Below, piece by piece: positions 266 through 52,915 of a DNA stretch of 64,000 nt (position 1 is its first letter; every line of letters starts with the position of its first letter). The stretch covers positions 1-64,000 of the forward strand of contig CASDTH010000044.1 of assembly GCA_949283655.1 (NCBI GenBank), read 5' to 3'. The notes beneath the pieces are model-generated. The model was not told the DNA's origin and made no database searches. It saw nothing but the letters and a program-made list of their open reading frames with translations. A program made the position numbers and the translations under genes. Source of the DNA: an uncultured bacterium (GTDB taxonomy: Bacteria > Bacillota > Clostridia > Oscillospirales > Acutalibacteraceae).

Positions 266-364
266 GGTCGCGTACAGCGAAACCAGGCACTCACTGAAAT
301 ATCAAATAGAATCTACTGGCCGCATCACAATTAAAAAATTGATTTTTACCCCGCTCAGGCCGCA
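266..364 (+). repeat. Degenerate copy of dispersed repeat R1
   Basis: This stretch aligns along its length with 51061-51159. Both begin with GGTCGCGTACAGCGAAACCA and both carry CTACTGGCCGCA and CCGCTCAGGCCGC at matching spacing. No credible gene overlaps it. It fills most of the gap between the first terminator and the convergent deacylase gene. Confidence 0.8.
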
Positions 365-2174: not shown

Positions 2175-3281
2175 ATGAAGCAGCAAGCTGACACACGCTT
2201 TCTGGGCGCAAACACGCCGGAAGGGTTCGTATCCCTGTTTGATGAGTTGTATGACCCTGCGGGGGATTGGCGCGCCTATGTGATCAAAGGGGGACCCGGC
2301 ACAGGCAAATCCGGGCTGATGCGCAGCGTAGCGGAGCGGCTGGAGCAGGCCGGCTATCAGGCGCAGCGTGTGCTGTGCTCCTCCGATCCTGCCTCGTTAG
2401 ACGGCGTAATTTTCCCGCAGCTGCGCGCATGCATTGCGGACGGCACCGCGCCCCATGTGATTGAACCCCGTTTCCCAGGCGCGGTGGAGGAACTGGTGGA
2501 CCTCGGCGCCTGCTGGAATGCGGAGCAACTGCGCGCACATGCGGAGGGCATCCGAACGGCTTCCCTCAAAAATAGCGCTTATCACCAGCGCTGTGTTGGC
2601 TTTCTCTCCGCCGCCGGGTCTTTGGCGAATGACACACTGCGGATTGTTCTGGAATGCGTCAATGCGGATAAAATCGCCGCATATGCTTCCCGCTTTGCGG
2701 CACGGGAATTTGGCACGGGGCATGGGCGTGTCGGCCGGGAGAACCGCTGCTTTTTAAGCGCGATTACACCGGAGGGGCTTGTGATGTGCTATGATACGGT
2801 TTCCTGCCTGTGCAGCCGAGTGATTGCGATTGACGATGCGTATGGCGCCGTATCCTCTCTGCTGCTGGACCGCCTGCGCTCCTATGCGTTGGCCGCCGGG
2901 CTGGATGTGACGGTCTGCCTATGCCCTATGAGCGCGGGCAAACGCATTGAGCATCTGCTGATTCCCGCAGCCGGTTTGTGCCTGTTCACGGCGAACCGGT
3001 TCCACTCTGCACCGGAAACGCCGCTGCGCCGGATTCACGCACGGCGGTTTATGGATGCTGAGCTCTTAAAAACACACCGTTATCGGCTCCATTTCAATGC
3101 GAAGGCGGAAGCAGAGCTACTTGCGGAAGCGGTGCGCATGCTAAAAAACGCAAAACGGACGCATGACGCGCTGGAGGCTTTCTATATCCCTGCAATGGAT
3201 TTTAAGAAGGTGGAAAAAAAGGGCGCGCAGCTTGCACGGGAGCTTTTGACCCGCGGGGAGCAGCTTGGACAGGAGGGGTAG
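2175..3281 (+). CDS. P-loop ATPase of the PRK06851 type
   Basis: The 368-aa protein has an N-terminal Walker A motif GGPGTGKSG soon after a leader resembling GGNTAKGF (here GANTPEGF), the signature of the PRK06851 family found in spore-forming Firmicutes; its role is unknown. Family members usually contain two ATPase halves. Here the second half (around VIAIDDAYGAVSSLLLDRL) keeps the fold context but has lost a recognisable GxxGxGK loop. An ORF is open upstream to 2064, but ATG 2175 begins at the family's conserved N-terminus and has a GGGGG stretch about eight bases upstream. The gene is followed by about 930 bp of repeats, so it appears monocistronic. Confidence 0.8.
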   Translation: MKQQADTRFLGANTPEGFVSLFDELYDPAGDWRAYVIKGGPGTGKSGLMRSVAERLEQAGYQAQRVLCSSDPASLDGVIFPQLRACIADGTAPHVIEPRFPGAVEELVDLGACWNAEQLRAHAEGIRTASLKNSAYHQRCVGFLSAAGSLANDTLRIVLECVNADKIAAYASRFAAREFGTGHGRVGRENRCFLSAITPEGLVMCYDTVSCLCSRVIAIDDAYGAVSSLLLDRLRSYALAAGLDVTVCLCPMSAGKRIEHLLIPAAGLCLFTANRFHSAPETPLRRIHARRFMDAELLKTHRYRLHFNAKAEAELLAEAVRMLKNAKRTHDALEAFYIPAMDFKKVEKKGAQLARELLTRGEQLGQEG

Positions 3282-3288
3282 GGCCAAA

Positions 3289-3448
3289 AATCAGACGTCA
3301 GACGTGGGAGCCGGAAGCAGTTACCCCAGAGACGGTGACAGAAAGCATTTTAACGGCTAGAATTTTTAGCCACCTGCCGCTGAGGTAAAAGCCTGAAGGG
3401 AACTACGTCTGACGTCTGATATCTGTCATCTGAAATCTGACTTCACGC
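3289..3448 (+). repeat. Composite TCTGA-tract repeat E1
   Basis: A core of about 100 bp (including GCCACCTGCCGC and TTTTAGCC) is bracketed by runs of degenerate TCTGACRTC-like units. The whole block is an inverted copy of 6177-6366, roughly 80 percent alike by eye. No ORF with an SD is present. Confidence 0.8.
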
Positions 3449-3460
3449 ACACGCATTTAG

Positions 3461-3823
3461 TGGCATCAAATGCTGCCTGGGCCTATGGCTTCGTTTGCGG
3501 CTCTGAACTGCTTGCGGGCTCCGGGAGAAACCTGGCGGGGCCTTCAGTCTGGCGCGGCGGTTGAAACCTTTCAGCAGGCCAGCGGCGGCAGGCTTTGCGC
3601 AGTTTCGGCGGGCTCGTGAGGGGACTTGCCTGCCGCCCGGCAGGCAAGCAGACGCCCAAACTGTTTGAGGCCACGTGAGTGGCCGAGTTTTTTGGGCGCT
3701 TTGCCGAACACCTCAAAGGGGGATAAAAACATACCAGTGCCGCCGCTGGCCATACAGAACGGCACCTTTTGCCTCCTTTTCCGGCCGGGCGGAAAAGGAG
3801 GGGCCCCGCAGCCCGAGCGGGAA
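3461..3823 (-). repeat. Modular repeat R2, inverted copy of 51143-51503
   Basis: The reverse complement aligns collinearly with 51143-51503 for about 350 bp. Shared landmarks include CTTGCCTGCCGCCCGGCAGG, GGGCTCGTGAGGGGACTTG, GAGTTTTTTGGG and GCCTCCTTTTCCGGCCG. It has several strong stem-loops, including GCCTGCCGCCCGGCAGGC and CCTCCTTTTCCG...CGGAAAAGGAGG. It is probably non-coding, although one frame stays open in both copies (see findings). Confidence 0.85.
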
Positions 3824-3857
3824 AACAGAAAACATAGCGCAATCCATAGAACACCCC

Positions 3858-4060
3858 GGAACGGTCTTGACCGTTCCCTACAAAGTTAGATTATAGAGAT
3901 TAGATATCGTTTTTTCAAACTTTTGCTACAGAGGCGGCGCGTTAAAACTTTTCCCTTCAAATGCTTTCTGCCAACTCTGCGGAGGCAGAAGCCTCCCGGC
4001 TTCCACATCTAATATCCAACAGCTGATGTCTAACATCTGACTTCTGACTTCGGACGATTT
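3858..4060 (+). repeat. Covarying palindrome plus TCTGA-tract repeat E2
   Basis: A perfect palindrome (GGAACGGTC, TT, GACCGTTCC at 3858-3877) is followed by CCTACAAAGTTAGA. A run of AGATTA-like units, a spacer containing CAGAAGCCTCCCGGCTTCC, and a closing run of TCTGACTTC-like units follow. The same order is seen at 52752-52915 with different but complementary palindrome arms. Confidence 0.8.
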
Positions 4061-4148
4061 TCGGCAAGCTGAGAGAAGGGGCGAAAAAGCTGCCCCTCTC
4101 TTCCCTATGATGCTGATTAATAAAAATACTTTAAGGCGAAATTAACGA

Positions 4149-4177
4149 TTGAATTTTAAGCCGGAATTGGTTACAAT
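4149..4177 (+). promoter_or_regulatory. Sigma-A promoter for the RING protein-galU operon
   Basis: TTGAAT (4149-4154) and TACAAT (4172-4177) are spaced by 17 bp, 33 bp upstream of the chosen TTG start. Confidence 0.7.
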
Positions 4178-4210
4178 GAGAATATCTTTCGAACGATCGG
4201 AGGAGTGTGC

Positions 4211-6059: not shown

Positions 6060-6366
6060 GTTGGATTGTAAATTTAAGAAATTAGACAGTAAAGATGCAA
6101 TCCGGAAGGCATGAACCACAAAAAGAAGAGGCGGAAAACGTTGAGCCCCGGGAGAAACCTCCCGGGGCCCTTATTCAGATGTCAGATTTCAGACCTCAGA
6201 CGTGGTTCCCTTCAGGCTTCTGCCTCTGCGGCAGGTGGCTAAAAATTCTGACTGTTAAAATACTTTCTGCCATTGCCTCTAAGGCAAAAGCCTTTCGGCT
6301 CTCACATCTGGCGGCTAATGTTTGAAGCCTAATCTCTGAATTCTGGCATCTGAAATCTGGCGTCTG
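6060..6366 (-). repeat. Composite TCTGA-tract repeat E3, inverted relative to E1
   Basis: Positions 6177-6366 match the reverse complement of 3289-3448, with shared TTCCCTTCAGGCTT, GGCAGGTGGCTAAAAATTCT and TTAAAAT.CTTTCTG. The stretch before it (6060-6110) has AGAT/TTAGA units like those in E2. The block fills the gap between galU and the 55-aa gene. Confidence 0.8.
6144..6176 (+). terminator. Probable galU terminator hairpin
   Basis: A 9-bp stem CCCCGGGAG / CTCCCGGGG with an AAAC loop is followed by CCCTTATT. The same loop and similar arms recur within the modular repeats at 3511-3541, 50757-50783 and 51421-51452, so this terminator may itself derive from a repeat. Confidence 0.6.
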
Positions 6367-50542: not shown

Positions 50543-50590
50543 ACGCTCCATGCCATAATAAAAAGGCATGGGGCGTATATTTTTGCTGCA
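50543..50590 (+). repeat. 48-bp direct repeat, left copy
   Basis: Identical to 51871-51917 apart from one extra A. It contains the stem CCATGCC/GGCATGG and ends GTATATTTTTGCTGCA. The two copies bracket a 1.3-kb block of repeats. Confidence 0.9.
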
Positions 50591-50721
50591 AACCAGGCAC
50601 TCACAAAAAATCAAAGAAAACCTACTGGTTGCACCACAAATGAAACATTGATGTTTATTCCGCTCGGGCCGCGGAGGCCCCTCCTTTTCCGTTCGGCCGG
50701 AAAAGGAGGCAAAAGGGGCCG
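50591..50721 (+). repeat. Repeat R1, copy 2
   Basis: About 130 bp nearly identical to 51077-51206, with only a handful of differences. Shared parts include AACCAGGCACTCACAAAAAA, ACAAATGAAACATTGATG and the stem CCTCCTTTTCCG...CGGAAAAGGAGG. Confidence 0.9.
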
Positions 50722-51060
50722 ATTGAAAGGCTCTTCCTCCGTGCCAGACTGAAGGCCCCCGGAAGGTTTCTCCCGGAGCCTGTAAGTAGTTTGGAGACTC
50801 AAGCGTAACGATAGGCCCAGGCGGCAACTACTGTCACTCAATGCGTGCACGTGAGGGAACTTTTTGGCCCGAAGGGCAAAAAGCGAACCTTCCCGCATGT
50901 TTGAAGCCGCGTGAGCGGCTGAGTTCGGGAAGCGTTCGCCGAACGCGCGGTGGTGTGGAAAGTTTAACAACCGCAGCCGCAGTGCCGTTCGCGGGGTCGT
51001 GGGGCTAAGCCCCCGGCTGTTTCTCTTGCCTCGTTCTCTTGTCAGCCAACAAGAGAATGA
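50722..51060 (+). repeat. Shuffled modules of repeat R2
   Basis: The part 50722-50830 matches 51390-51495 (GATTGAAAGGCTCT, CGGAGCCTG.AAGTAGT, AACGATAGGCCCAGGCGGCA). The part 50890-50945 matches 3658-3712 in the direct sense (TGTTTGA.GCC.CGTGAG.GGC). Order and orientation differ from the other copies, so the family is modular. Confidence 0.75.
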
Positions 51061-51206
51061 GGTCGCGTACAGCGAAACCAGGCACTCACAAAAAATCAAA
51101 GAAAACCTACTGGCCGCACCACAAATGAAACATTGATGTTTATTCCGCTCAGGCCGCGGAGGCCCCTCCTTTTCCGCTCGGCCGGAAAAGGAGGCAAAAG
51201 GGGCCG
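51061..51206 (+). repeat. Repeat R1, copy 3 (best-preserved)
   Basis: Matches 50591-50721 closely over its last 130 bp and the degenerate copy at 266-364 over its first 100 bp. Confidence 0.9.
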
Positions 51207-51503
51207 TTCTGCACGGCCAGCGGCGGCACTGAGATGCTCATGTATCTCTTTTAAGTGTTCGGCAAGCCACCCAAAAAACTCGCTGCCTCACGGCAGCTCA
51301 GACATTTTGGGCGTTTGCTTGCCTGCCGGGCGGCAGGCAAGTCCCCTCACGAGCCCGCCAGAACTGTGTGGAGCCTGCCTCCGCTGGCCTATTGAAAGGC
51401 TCTGCTTCCGCACCAGACTGCAGGCTCCGGGAGAAACCTCCCGGAGCCTGCAAGTAGTTCTGACCCGCAAGCGGAACGATAGGCCCAGGCGGCATCAGAT
51501 GCC
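51143..51503 (+). repeat. Modular repeat R2, reference copy
   Basis: Collinear with the reverse complement of 3461-3823. It contains GCCTGCCGGGCGGCAGGC and the stem GGCTCCGGGAG/CTCCCGGAGCC with AAAC loop (51423-51449). A further partial module (GGAGCCTGCCGCCGCTGGCCT) repeats at 51531-51551. Confidence 0.88.
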
Positions 51504-51639
51504 ACCCCTCACGGGCCCCCGGGAATGTGCGGAGCCTGCCGCCGCTGGCCTGTGGAAAGGCTTCAGCCACTCCGAAAGACGGAAGGGATCGAGAGGCTTT
51601 TCCCGGGACCAACGCTTTCTGTCTCTTGCTTTTTATGGC

Positions 51640-51800
51640 TCATGCCTTCCGGCTTCCACGTCTGGCGTCTCATGTCCGAAATCTGACGTCTGACTTGGCC
51701 GTTCCCTACAAAGCTGGAGGGTAGATTTTAAAGATTGGTTGTTAGATTTGAGACTGCGAAAATTGGAGATTGGATGGGAAAGCCGGAAGGCAGGTGCCTC
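51640..51800 (+). repeat. Composite TCTGA-tract repeat E4
   Basis: Runs of GTCTGACTTGG-like units (51655-51695), a half palindrome GGCCGTTCCCTACAAAG, AGATT/GATTGG units (51722-51775), then AGCCGGAAGGCAGG. The order matches E2 but the left palindrome arm is missing. Confidence 0.7.
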
Positions 51801-51870
51801 CGAAGGGAAAACAGAGGCATTTTTGCCCGGCTGGGGAGGATGTGCCTTACCAGCTTTTTCCGACAGGCTG

Positions 51871-51917
51871 ACGCTCCATGCCATAATAAAAGGCATGGGG
51901 CGTATATTTTTGCTGCA
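51871..51917 (+). repeat. 48-bp direct repeat, right copy
   Basis: 47 bp, equal to 50543-50590 except for one A. It lies about 95 bp upstream of nth and may shape its leader. Confidence 0.9.
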
Positions 51918-52012
51918 GACGAGGCTTGGCGGACTGCGTCAAATACAGTATAATAAAGCCGGACTGGCGCTTGAACCCGAGCGCCAGAGCATGAAAGGAA
52001 GAAGGGCTTTGC

Positions 52013-52645
52013 ATGACCAAAAAGCAACGCGCCCAGATGGCTGTGGATGCGCTGAAAAAAGAATACCCGGATGCGGTTTGCTCCCTGCGGGCGGAGGAGC
52101 CCTTGCAGCTGCTTATCGCCACCCGCCTCTCGGCCCAATGCACGGATGCACGAGTCAACCTTGTGACGCCGGCTCTGTTTGCAAAATACCCCACGCTGGA
52201 GGCCTTTTGCGAGGCACGCGTGGAGGATGTAGAGGCAATCATCCACTCCTGCGGCTTTTACCATGGAAAGGCGCGGGATATCATCGGCATGTCGCAAAAA
52301 ATCCGGGATGAATTCGGCGGCGTTGTACCGGATACGGTCGAGGCGCTCACCACGCTGCCAGGCGTTGGCCGGAAAACGGCCAACCTCATTGTGGGGGATG
52401 TTTACGGCAAGCCGGCCGTCGTTGCGGATACGCACTTTATCCGTATGTCGAACCGGCTGGGCTTTGTCAGCACAAAGGACCCTTATAAGGTTGAAGTGGA
52501 GATGCGCAAGCTCCTGCCGCCGGAGGAGAGCAATGATTTTTGCCACCGCTGCGTGCTGCATGGACGGGCCTGCTGCACTGCGCGCAAGGCGATGTGCGAT
52601 AGCTGCTGCATGGCGGAATTCTGCCCTAAGCAGGGCGTTGCCTGA
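52013..52645 (+). CDS. nth: Endonuclease III
   Basis: The 210-aa base-excision repair enzyme removes oxidised pyrimidines and cuts the abasic site. It has the helix-hairpin-helix LPGVGRKTANLIVGD with catalytic Lys, the catalytic Asp in VADTHFIRMSNRLG, and a C-terminal [4Fe-4S] cluster loop with Cys in CHRCVLHGRACC and CDSCC...FCP. Length is normal (about 210). ATG 52013 has AGGAAGAAGG upstream. It stands alone between repeat blocks and is followed by a probable terminator. Confidence 0.95.
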   Translation: MTKKQRAQMAVDALKKEYPDAVCSLRAEEPLQLLIATRLSAQCTDARVNLVTPALFAKYPTLEAFCEARVEDVEAIIHSCGFYHGKARDIIGMSQKIRDEFGGVVPDTVEALTTLPGVGRKTANLIVGDVYGKPAVVADTHFIRMSNRLGFVSTKDPYKVEVEMRKLLPPEESNDFCHRCVLHGRACCTARKAMCDSCCMAEFCPKQGVA

Positions 52646-52675
52646 CAGAGGGACGCGCCTCTCTGTGCAGAAAGG

Positions 52676-52716
52676 ACCGGGGCGCCTGGGGCGGCGCTCC
52701 GGCCCCGATTTTGCAT
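52676..52716 (+). terminator. Probable terminator of nth
   Basis: CGGGGC pairs with GCCCCG, with a further GCGCC-rich part inside, and is followed by ATTTTG, about 30 bp past the stop. Confidence 0.6.
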
Positions 52717-52751
52717 AGATACCTGTGAACGGTTTCACGGGGTAGATTTGC

Positions 52752-52915
52752 GCCCGGCCGGGTCTTGACCCGGCCCCTACGAAGTTAGATGTTGGACTGG
52801 GGAAATTGGATAGTAGACTTGGTTTCATGCAGGCTCCTGCCGCAGAGGCGGGGGCTTTTTCGGCTTTCTCATCCAGCCGCTCATTTCCCAAATCTACCAT
52901 CTAAATTTGTGGAAA
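52752..52915 (+). repeat. Covarying palindrome plus AGAT-tract repeat E5
   Basis: The palindrome GGCCGGGTC, TT, GACCCGGCC (52756-52775) is followed by CCTACGAAGTTAGAT. AGATG/GGATAG units, a core with CTGCCGCAGAGGC and AATCTACCATCTAAAT follow. The layout equals E2 at 3858-4060, but three arm positions differ on both sides so that pairing is kept. Confidence 0.8.

Follow-up and report, generated by a model that had tools for sequence, protein, structure and literature searches.

What kind of sequence occupies positions 3461-3823 of this 64,000-nucleotide stretch of DNA (the window; C44:1-64000 of a 2.59-Mb, 50-contig assembly that is 99.35% complete) and recurs in inverted orientation 47 kb away? 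The sequence-only reading had described a collinear inverted copy at 51143-51503, shuffled blocks at 50722-51060, and a structured mobile RNA or DNA element or the remnant of one. Self-BLAST of the window indeed aligns 3460-3827 with the reverse complement of 51505-51137 over 370 columns (81.4% identity, E 3.4e-95), placing the proposed pair to within a few bases, and the shuffled blocks are equally real, as 3443-3573 matches 50854-50724 and 3760-3827 matches 50721-50652. Open reading frames across the window copies have no Pfam match at E<=0.1, and a coding reading was dropped in favor of non-coding DNA of the kind that MITEs consist of.

A 411-base query produced 76 alignments in the genome, and 84 came from a 618-base query taken at the second site. 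Genome-wide, the repeat occupies ~60 places and ~30 kb in total, and when the 59 fetched segments were all compared with one another, 58 of them held material at a repeat depth of at least 10 (29.6 kb summed). Copies are ~10-25% divergent, often block by block, and their unique flanks differ. By inspection, ~30 of the 100 contig ends fall inside the repeat, which is therefore probably a main cause of assembly breaks and helps to account for such breaks in the genus; with many copies sitting at contig ends, whole elements are seen incompletely.

The module map and alignments reveal a plan in which two homologous arms are inverted around a central module M with a dyad and each read outward, the order within an arm being an X core followed by end module B or D. 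Module B consists of a hairpin (CCTCCTTTTCCG..CGGAAAAGGAGG) and then GCGGCCTGAGCGG, module D of GGGGC..GCCCC and CTCTTG..CAAGAG hairpins and a tail. A full D-X-M-X-D element at C46:22454-23246 is 76% self-complementary across ~700 bp, and many loci are single arms or shuffled arrays. The element is GC-rich, measures about 0.4-1.1 kb and has inverted-repeat ends as MITEs do, with GCGGCCTGAGCGG-type ends facing outward, while the variable order of distinct modules M, X, B and D is that of BOX-type repeats.

At the first window site, on the plus strand, the central palindromic segment M (3443-3576; common to 50724-50854 and many genome copies) lies upstream of an A-type X core (3614-3713) and of end module B (3760-3827), which includes a 30-bp hairpin at 3772-3801 and the terminal GCAGCCCGAGCGG. 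The second site (50590-51606) reads B-M-X-D, then B-X-M. It begins with a leftward-reading, minus-strand B module with a D-like tail (50590-50721; 97% identical to 51075-51206), followed on the plus strand by M (50717-50848; self-BLAST, module map and alignment), a C-type X core (50849-50948) and the alternative 3' module D with its tail (50973-51160; genome search and module map). The second element there lies on the minus strand, with module B at 51137-51206, an A-type X core at 51253-51352 and M at 51370-51505, which contains a perfect 15-bp dyad (51419-51452); its B and M modules were placed by self-BLAST and the module map. A further, partial M/X copy follows at 51505-51606 (minus strand; 76%, E 4e-12), and a solo D tail is found at 266-363 (plus strand; 87% to 51061-51157).

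Several other repeats accompany these modules. Two 56-bp blocks (50543-50598 and 51871-51925, 95% alike) flank the repeat cluster of the second site and have a terminator-like hairpin (CCATGCCATAATAAAAGGCATGGGG) at their center. The H repeat, a second dispersed family that often adjoins the structured repeat, has TCTGANN-periodic 7-bp inverted ends; its ~165-bp copy at 3281-3445 (plus strand) adjoins the element, is 81% identical to the window's second copy at 6324-6174 (found by self-BLAST on the minus strand, 6174-6324) and has ~ten matching places in the genome. Four D modules (C16:115740-116150, L102; C32:94560-94980, L103; C2:12060-12520, L091; C14:29200-29660, L008) have the usual hairpin loop replaced by a near-identical ~300-bp block flanked by CATCGGCGTACAGGGGG and CCCCCTGTGCACCGATG, which looks like the youngest insertion layer.

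The X core of ~100 nt folds as a three-way junction of a short helix P1, formed around GTGAGGG / CCGAACAC, a P2 hairpin and a long bulged P3 that ends in an internal loop (TGTTTGA / GAGTT) and leads to P4, capped by a GTGA loop. The hairpin GCCTGCCGCCCGGCAGGC singled out by the sequence-only reading is P2 of the first window core (3628-3645, plus strand). Pairing is kept across different versions of each stem: GCCTG/CAGGC, TTTTCGCC/GGCGAAAA and TTTTTCG/CGAAAAA for P2; GCCCAAAA/TTTTGGGT, GCACAAA/TTTGTGC and CTTCCCG/CGGGAAG for P3; and GGCCAC/GTGGCC, GCCGCC/GGCGGT, AGCCGC/GCGGCT and GCTGCC/GGCAGC for P4. Inspection also leads us to propose a long-range closing helix, P0, in which GGCCAGCGGCGGCA (3577-3590) would pair with its exact complement TGCCGCCGCTGGCC (3738-3751), 147 nt apart on the plus strand; P0 apparently takes the form GGCGGC/GCCGCC in C-type copies and GGCAGC/GCTGCC in those of the sister species described below.

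A covariance model (R1) built from 23 A-type copies, among them the window cores at 3614-3713 (114.5 bits) and 51253-51352 (113.2 bits), detects at least 76 X cores in this genome (E<=3e-14). Trained on A-type copies only, it also recovers copies of the C type and of the sister species, mostly at 54-79 bits, and scores the C-type core of the window at 70.2 bits (E 1e-17). In an alignment of 79 distinct rows (A4), 94.8% of cells are paired, compared to 72.2% in shuffled and less than 47% in slid controls, double changes occur in 22 of 31 pairs, and the covariation score is 0.606 versus 0.203 shuffled and 0.063-0.143 slid; as the rows were aligned by fitting to the model and come from related copies, cells do not equal independent events. 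Free folding of the same alignment with RNAalifold recovers P2, P3 and P4 with a covariation term of -8.2, and the stem variants are readable by eye in unfitted MAFFT alignments. Paired columns hold their pairing at a mean entropy of 0.83 bits, compared to 0.44 bits in unpaired columns. It is the shape of the core rather than its sequence that is kept, with stems replaced wholesale and loops conserved.

The family is also present in the independently assembled Ruminococcaceae bacterium UBA1691, a sister species of the same genus, where R1 has 14 matches (best 76 bits). Modules, including B, recur there, and a mosaic order with alternative B and D ends is seen in both species. UBA1691 has stems that are absent from this genome, namely P4 GACGAT/ATCGTC, P3 AAAAGGCTTC/GAAGCCTTTT and a 20-bp P2; the latter hairpin (TTTTTAGCGAGAGGCAGGC...), far longer than elsewhere, belongs to the X copy at C72:553-672 (L137). 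Carriers number 2 of 40 relatives by blastn and 2 of 98 genomes by R1, and with model R2 this genome is the only one among 394 drawn from the order; the scans of 98 and 394 genomes used strict filters that may lose weak matches. Among the 98, one genome of another family (G087) gave a weak match (24 bits, E 0.004 per genome) that has none of the conserved loops and was judged to be chance. None of ~490 further genomes from the family and order has a credible match, and among the genomes sampled the repeat is confined to one genus. Phage and plasmid records contain no match, nor does a viral collection searched with two exact patterns.

At one site, the comparison with UBA1691 bears directly on gain and loss. 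The orthologues of the genes flanking 3281-4205 (84% and 71% identical) are adjacent there, with a gap of ~0.14 kb instead of 0.92 kb and no repeat between them; either one lineage has gained the insertion or the other has lost it. This is the one clean empty site, and it does not align across the junction, the element ends merging into other repeats such as the H heptads. At a second site (C45:25459-26129), UBA1691 also has no X after the orthologous gene, and we did not count it given that synteny is broken beyond; a UBA1691 match to the gene at 51728-52900 was set aside as partial and containing stops. As the sequence-only reading had noted, no transposase is linked to the repeat in the window, where Pfam matches of the neighbors are ordinary or absent. 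Genome-wide, neighboring genes are ordinary and unrelated, with no family recurring in more than 2 of 77, and none of these 77 neighbors offered a tie to a particular gene. A genome-wide search for possible movers that covered Y1_Tnp (RAYT), RVT_1 (reverse transcriptase) and Cas12f1-like_TNB (TnpB) found none of the three in this genome.

The earlier suggestion of a structured mobile element or its remnant is thus supported by many dispersed copies, covariation that beats both controls and one empty orthologous site. We consider the family to be, more likely than not, a BOX/MITE-like mobile repeat that is non-autonomous, restricted to one genus and unusual in the complexity of its conserved fold, its mobility being deduced from distribution and the empty site rather than observed. 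Copies might spread by DNA transposition, with the folded strand excised or copied by a putative mover acting in trans, either a transposase or a replication-linked activity. Recombination between copies could shuffle the modules, and the fold may be retained as the feature that the mobilizing machinery recognizes. If copies are co-transcribed with their neighbors, the hairpins would fall in 3' untranslated regions and mRNA ends may change as a side effect.

Alternatively, the copies could be dispersed elements kept for the benefit of the host, with the fold working as an mRNA 3'-end stabilizer, a transcription attenuator or a chromosome-organizing site. Such a role would agree with the retention of the fold in nearly all copies, the stems of which change yet pair, with the nearly universal GNRA-like GTGA loop above P4 and with a mirror-image layout that gives an outward X on either strand. 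The orientation of adjacent genes would fit as well: where both neighbors are visible, 12 sites are convergent, 15 tandem and 2 divergent, a depletion of divergent sites (2 of 29 copies versus 12 of 33 window gaps of at least 40 bases, p 0.007 with a crude ORF caller), which we count in favor of the mobile repeat as well. Conversely, a service to the host is difficult to reconcile with a distribution that takes in two congeneric species but none of the ~490 other genomes, with the empty orthologous site and with neighbors that have no function in common, and we regard it as unlikely while taking it seriously.

Could an ordinary MITE-like repeat owe its perfect hairpins to mutation instead, by template switching between arms or gene conversion, without selection for a fold? 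The limited set of stem block variants, recombined in different combinations, is what gene conversion would be expected to leave behind, and in the strand test, when distinct types are counted, G-U does not significantly exceed A-C (13 versus 8, p 0.38). By cells, however, G-U outnumbers A-C by 92 to 40, or 91 to 6 once the often-failing pairs 10-148 and 92-144 are left out. Copying between local arms also poorly explains how both strands of P3 come to change with a hairpin in between or how P1 and P0 span the whole core. Further points against mutation alone are the conservation of loops and junction amid changing stems and a junction that two species share despite different stems. Purely mutational hairpins strike us as rather improbable.

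The same strand-specific counts lean, without being decisive, toward RNA of the outward strand over single-stranded DNA. One further possibility is a mobile element that is protein-free in cis and in which selection acts on a three-way-junction RNA transcribed outward, ~100 nt long or perhaps ~175 nt with P0; its divergent twin units with interchangeable 3' modules would be mobilized or maintained by host machinery that reads the RNA fold. We put forward this possibility as a doubtful one; if it were true, the family would represent a class of structured, modular repeat not seen before in bacteria.

The complex junction, conserved loops and multicopy nature might suggest divergence from a known RNA family such as HEARO or another Rfam RNA, but this origin is highly improbable in view of Rfam 15 covariance models, which match only tRNAs in the window at gathering level, have no match at E<=1 in 3281-3900 and give only sub-threshold chance matches in one further element (L017). 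An assembly artefact or the one-off segmental duplication that the sequence-only reading had anticipated for the case of just these copies without covariation, superficially plausible from two copies in one window and many copies stopping at contig borders, has practically no standing: both are refuted by copy number, with ~60 places that diverge from each other by ~20% and have unique flanks of their own, and by the second, independently assembled genome, and the strong paired-site covariation also runs counter to the anticipated case.

Simple palindromes are the usual form of dispersed repeats in bacteria, and a multi-helix junction kept by compensatory stem replacement over dozens of paralogous copies in two species sets the family apart. 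With more than 70 natural variants in one genome, it offers rich data on the question of selection for folded RNA or folded single-stranded DNA, and its covariance models are usable for annotating other genomes. BIME/REP elements with RAYT are mosaic palindromic intergenic repeats built of short REP hairpins. Our family shares the mosaic palindromic intergenic character but has ~100-nt three-way-junction units, and the Y1 TnpA-REP protein by which REP/BIME-RAYT systems are recognized was not detected in this genome (no match to Y1_Tnp, PF01797, which five control genomes do match). Like bacterial MITEs, it is non-autonomous, intergenic and bounded by inverted repeats, and stable folded transcripts are predicted for MITEs (PMC10969869); unlike them, it is not AT-rich and has imperfect inverted arms that are much longer, and neither a target-site duplication nor a parental insertion sequence was identified.

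For the structured-motif side, the category of mobile/repeat sequence candidates (MRSC) seems nearest (PMC11109978), the combination of many copies and covariation being found here with at least 76 cores and 22 of 31 pairs. MRSC-65-2 resembles our family as a covariation-supported motif with dozens of copies per genome that is viewed as selfish and whose RNA or DNA form is undecided (PMC11109978). MRSC-65-2 itself consists of one long stem carrying a UYCCGG repeat, occurs in diverse phyla and sometimes lies near a transposase (PMC11109978), whereas our family is a modular multi-helix junction of one genus. We also looked for the UYCCGG signature, and the element locus that we checked shows no enrichment of TYCCGG. 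In architecture, the nearest analogue appears to be the BOX elements of Streptococcus pneumoniae and S. suis, the latter having alternative end modules boxA/C and boxE/F (PMC3049150). The repeat is filed as working like BOX and MRSC systems, not as a member by homology: it differs from BOX in having a three-way-junction core whose stems have been replaced, with strong compensation, from copy to copy and from one species to the other, and the GC-rich, ~0.4-1.1-kb elements of this Ruminococcaceae-type Clostridium host carry their cores head-to-head around a palindrome.
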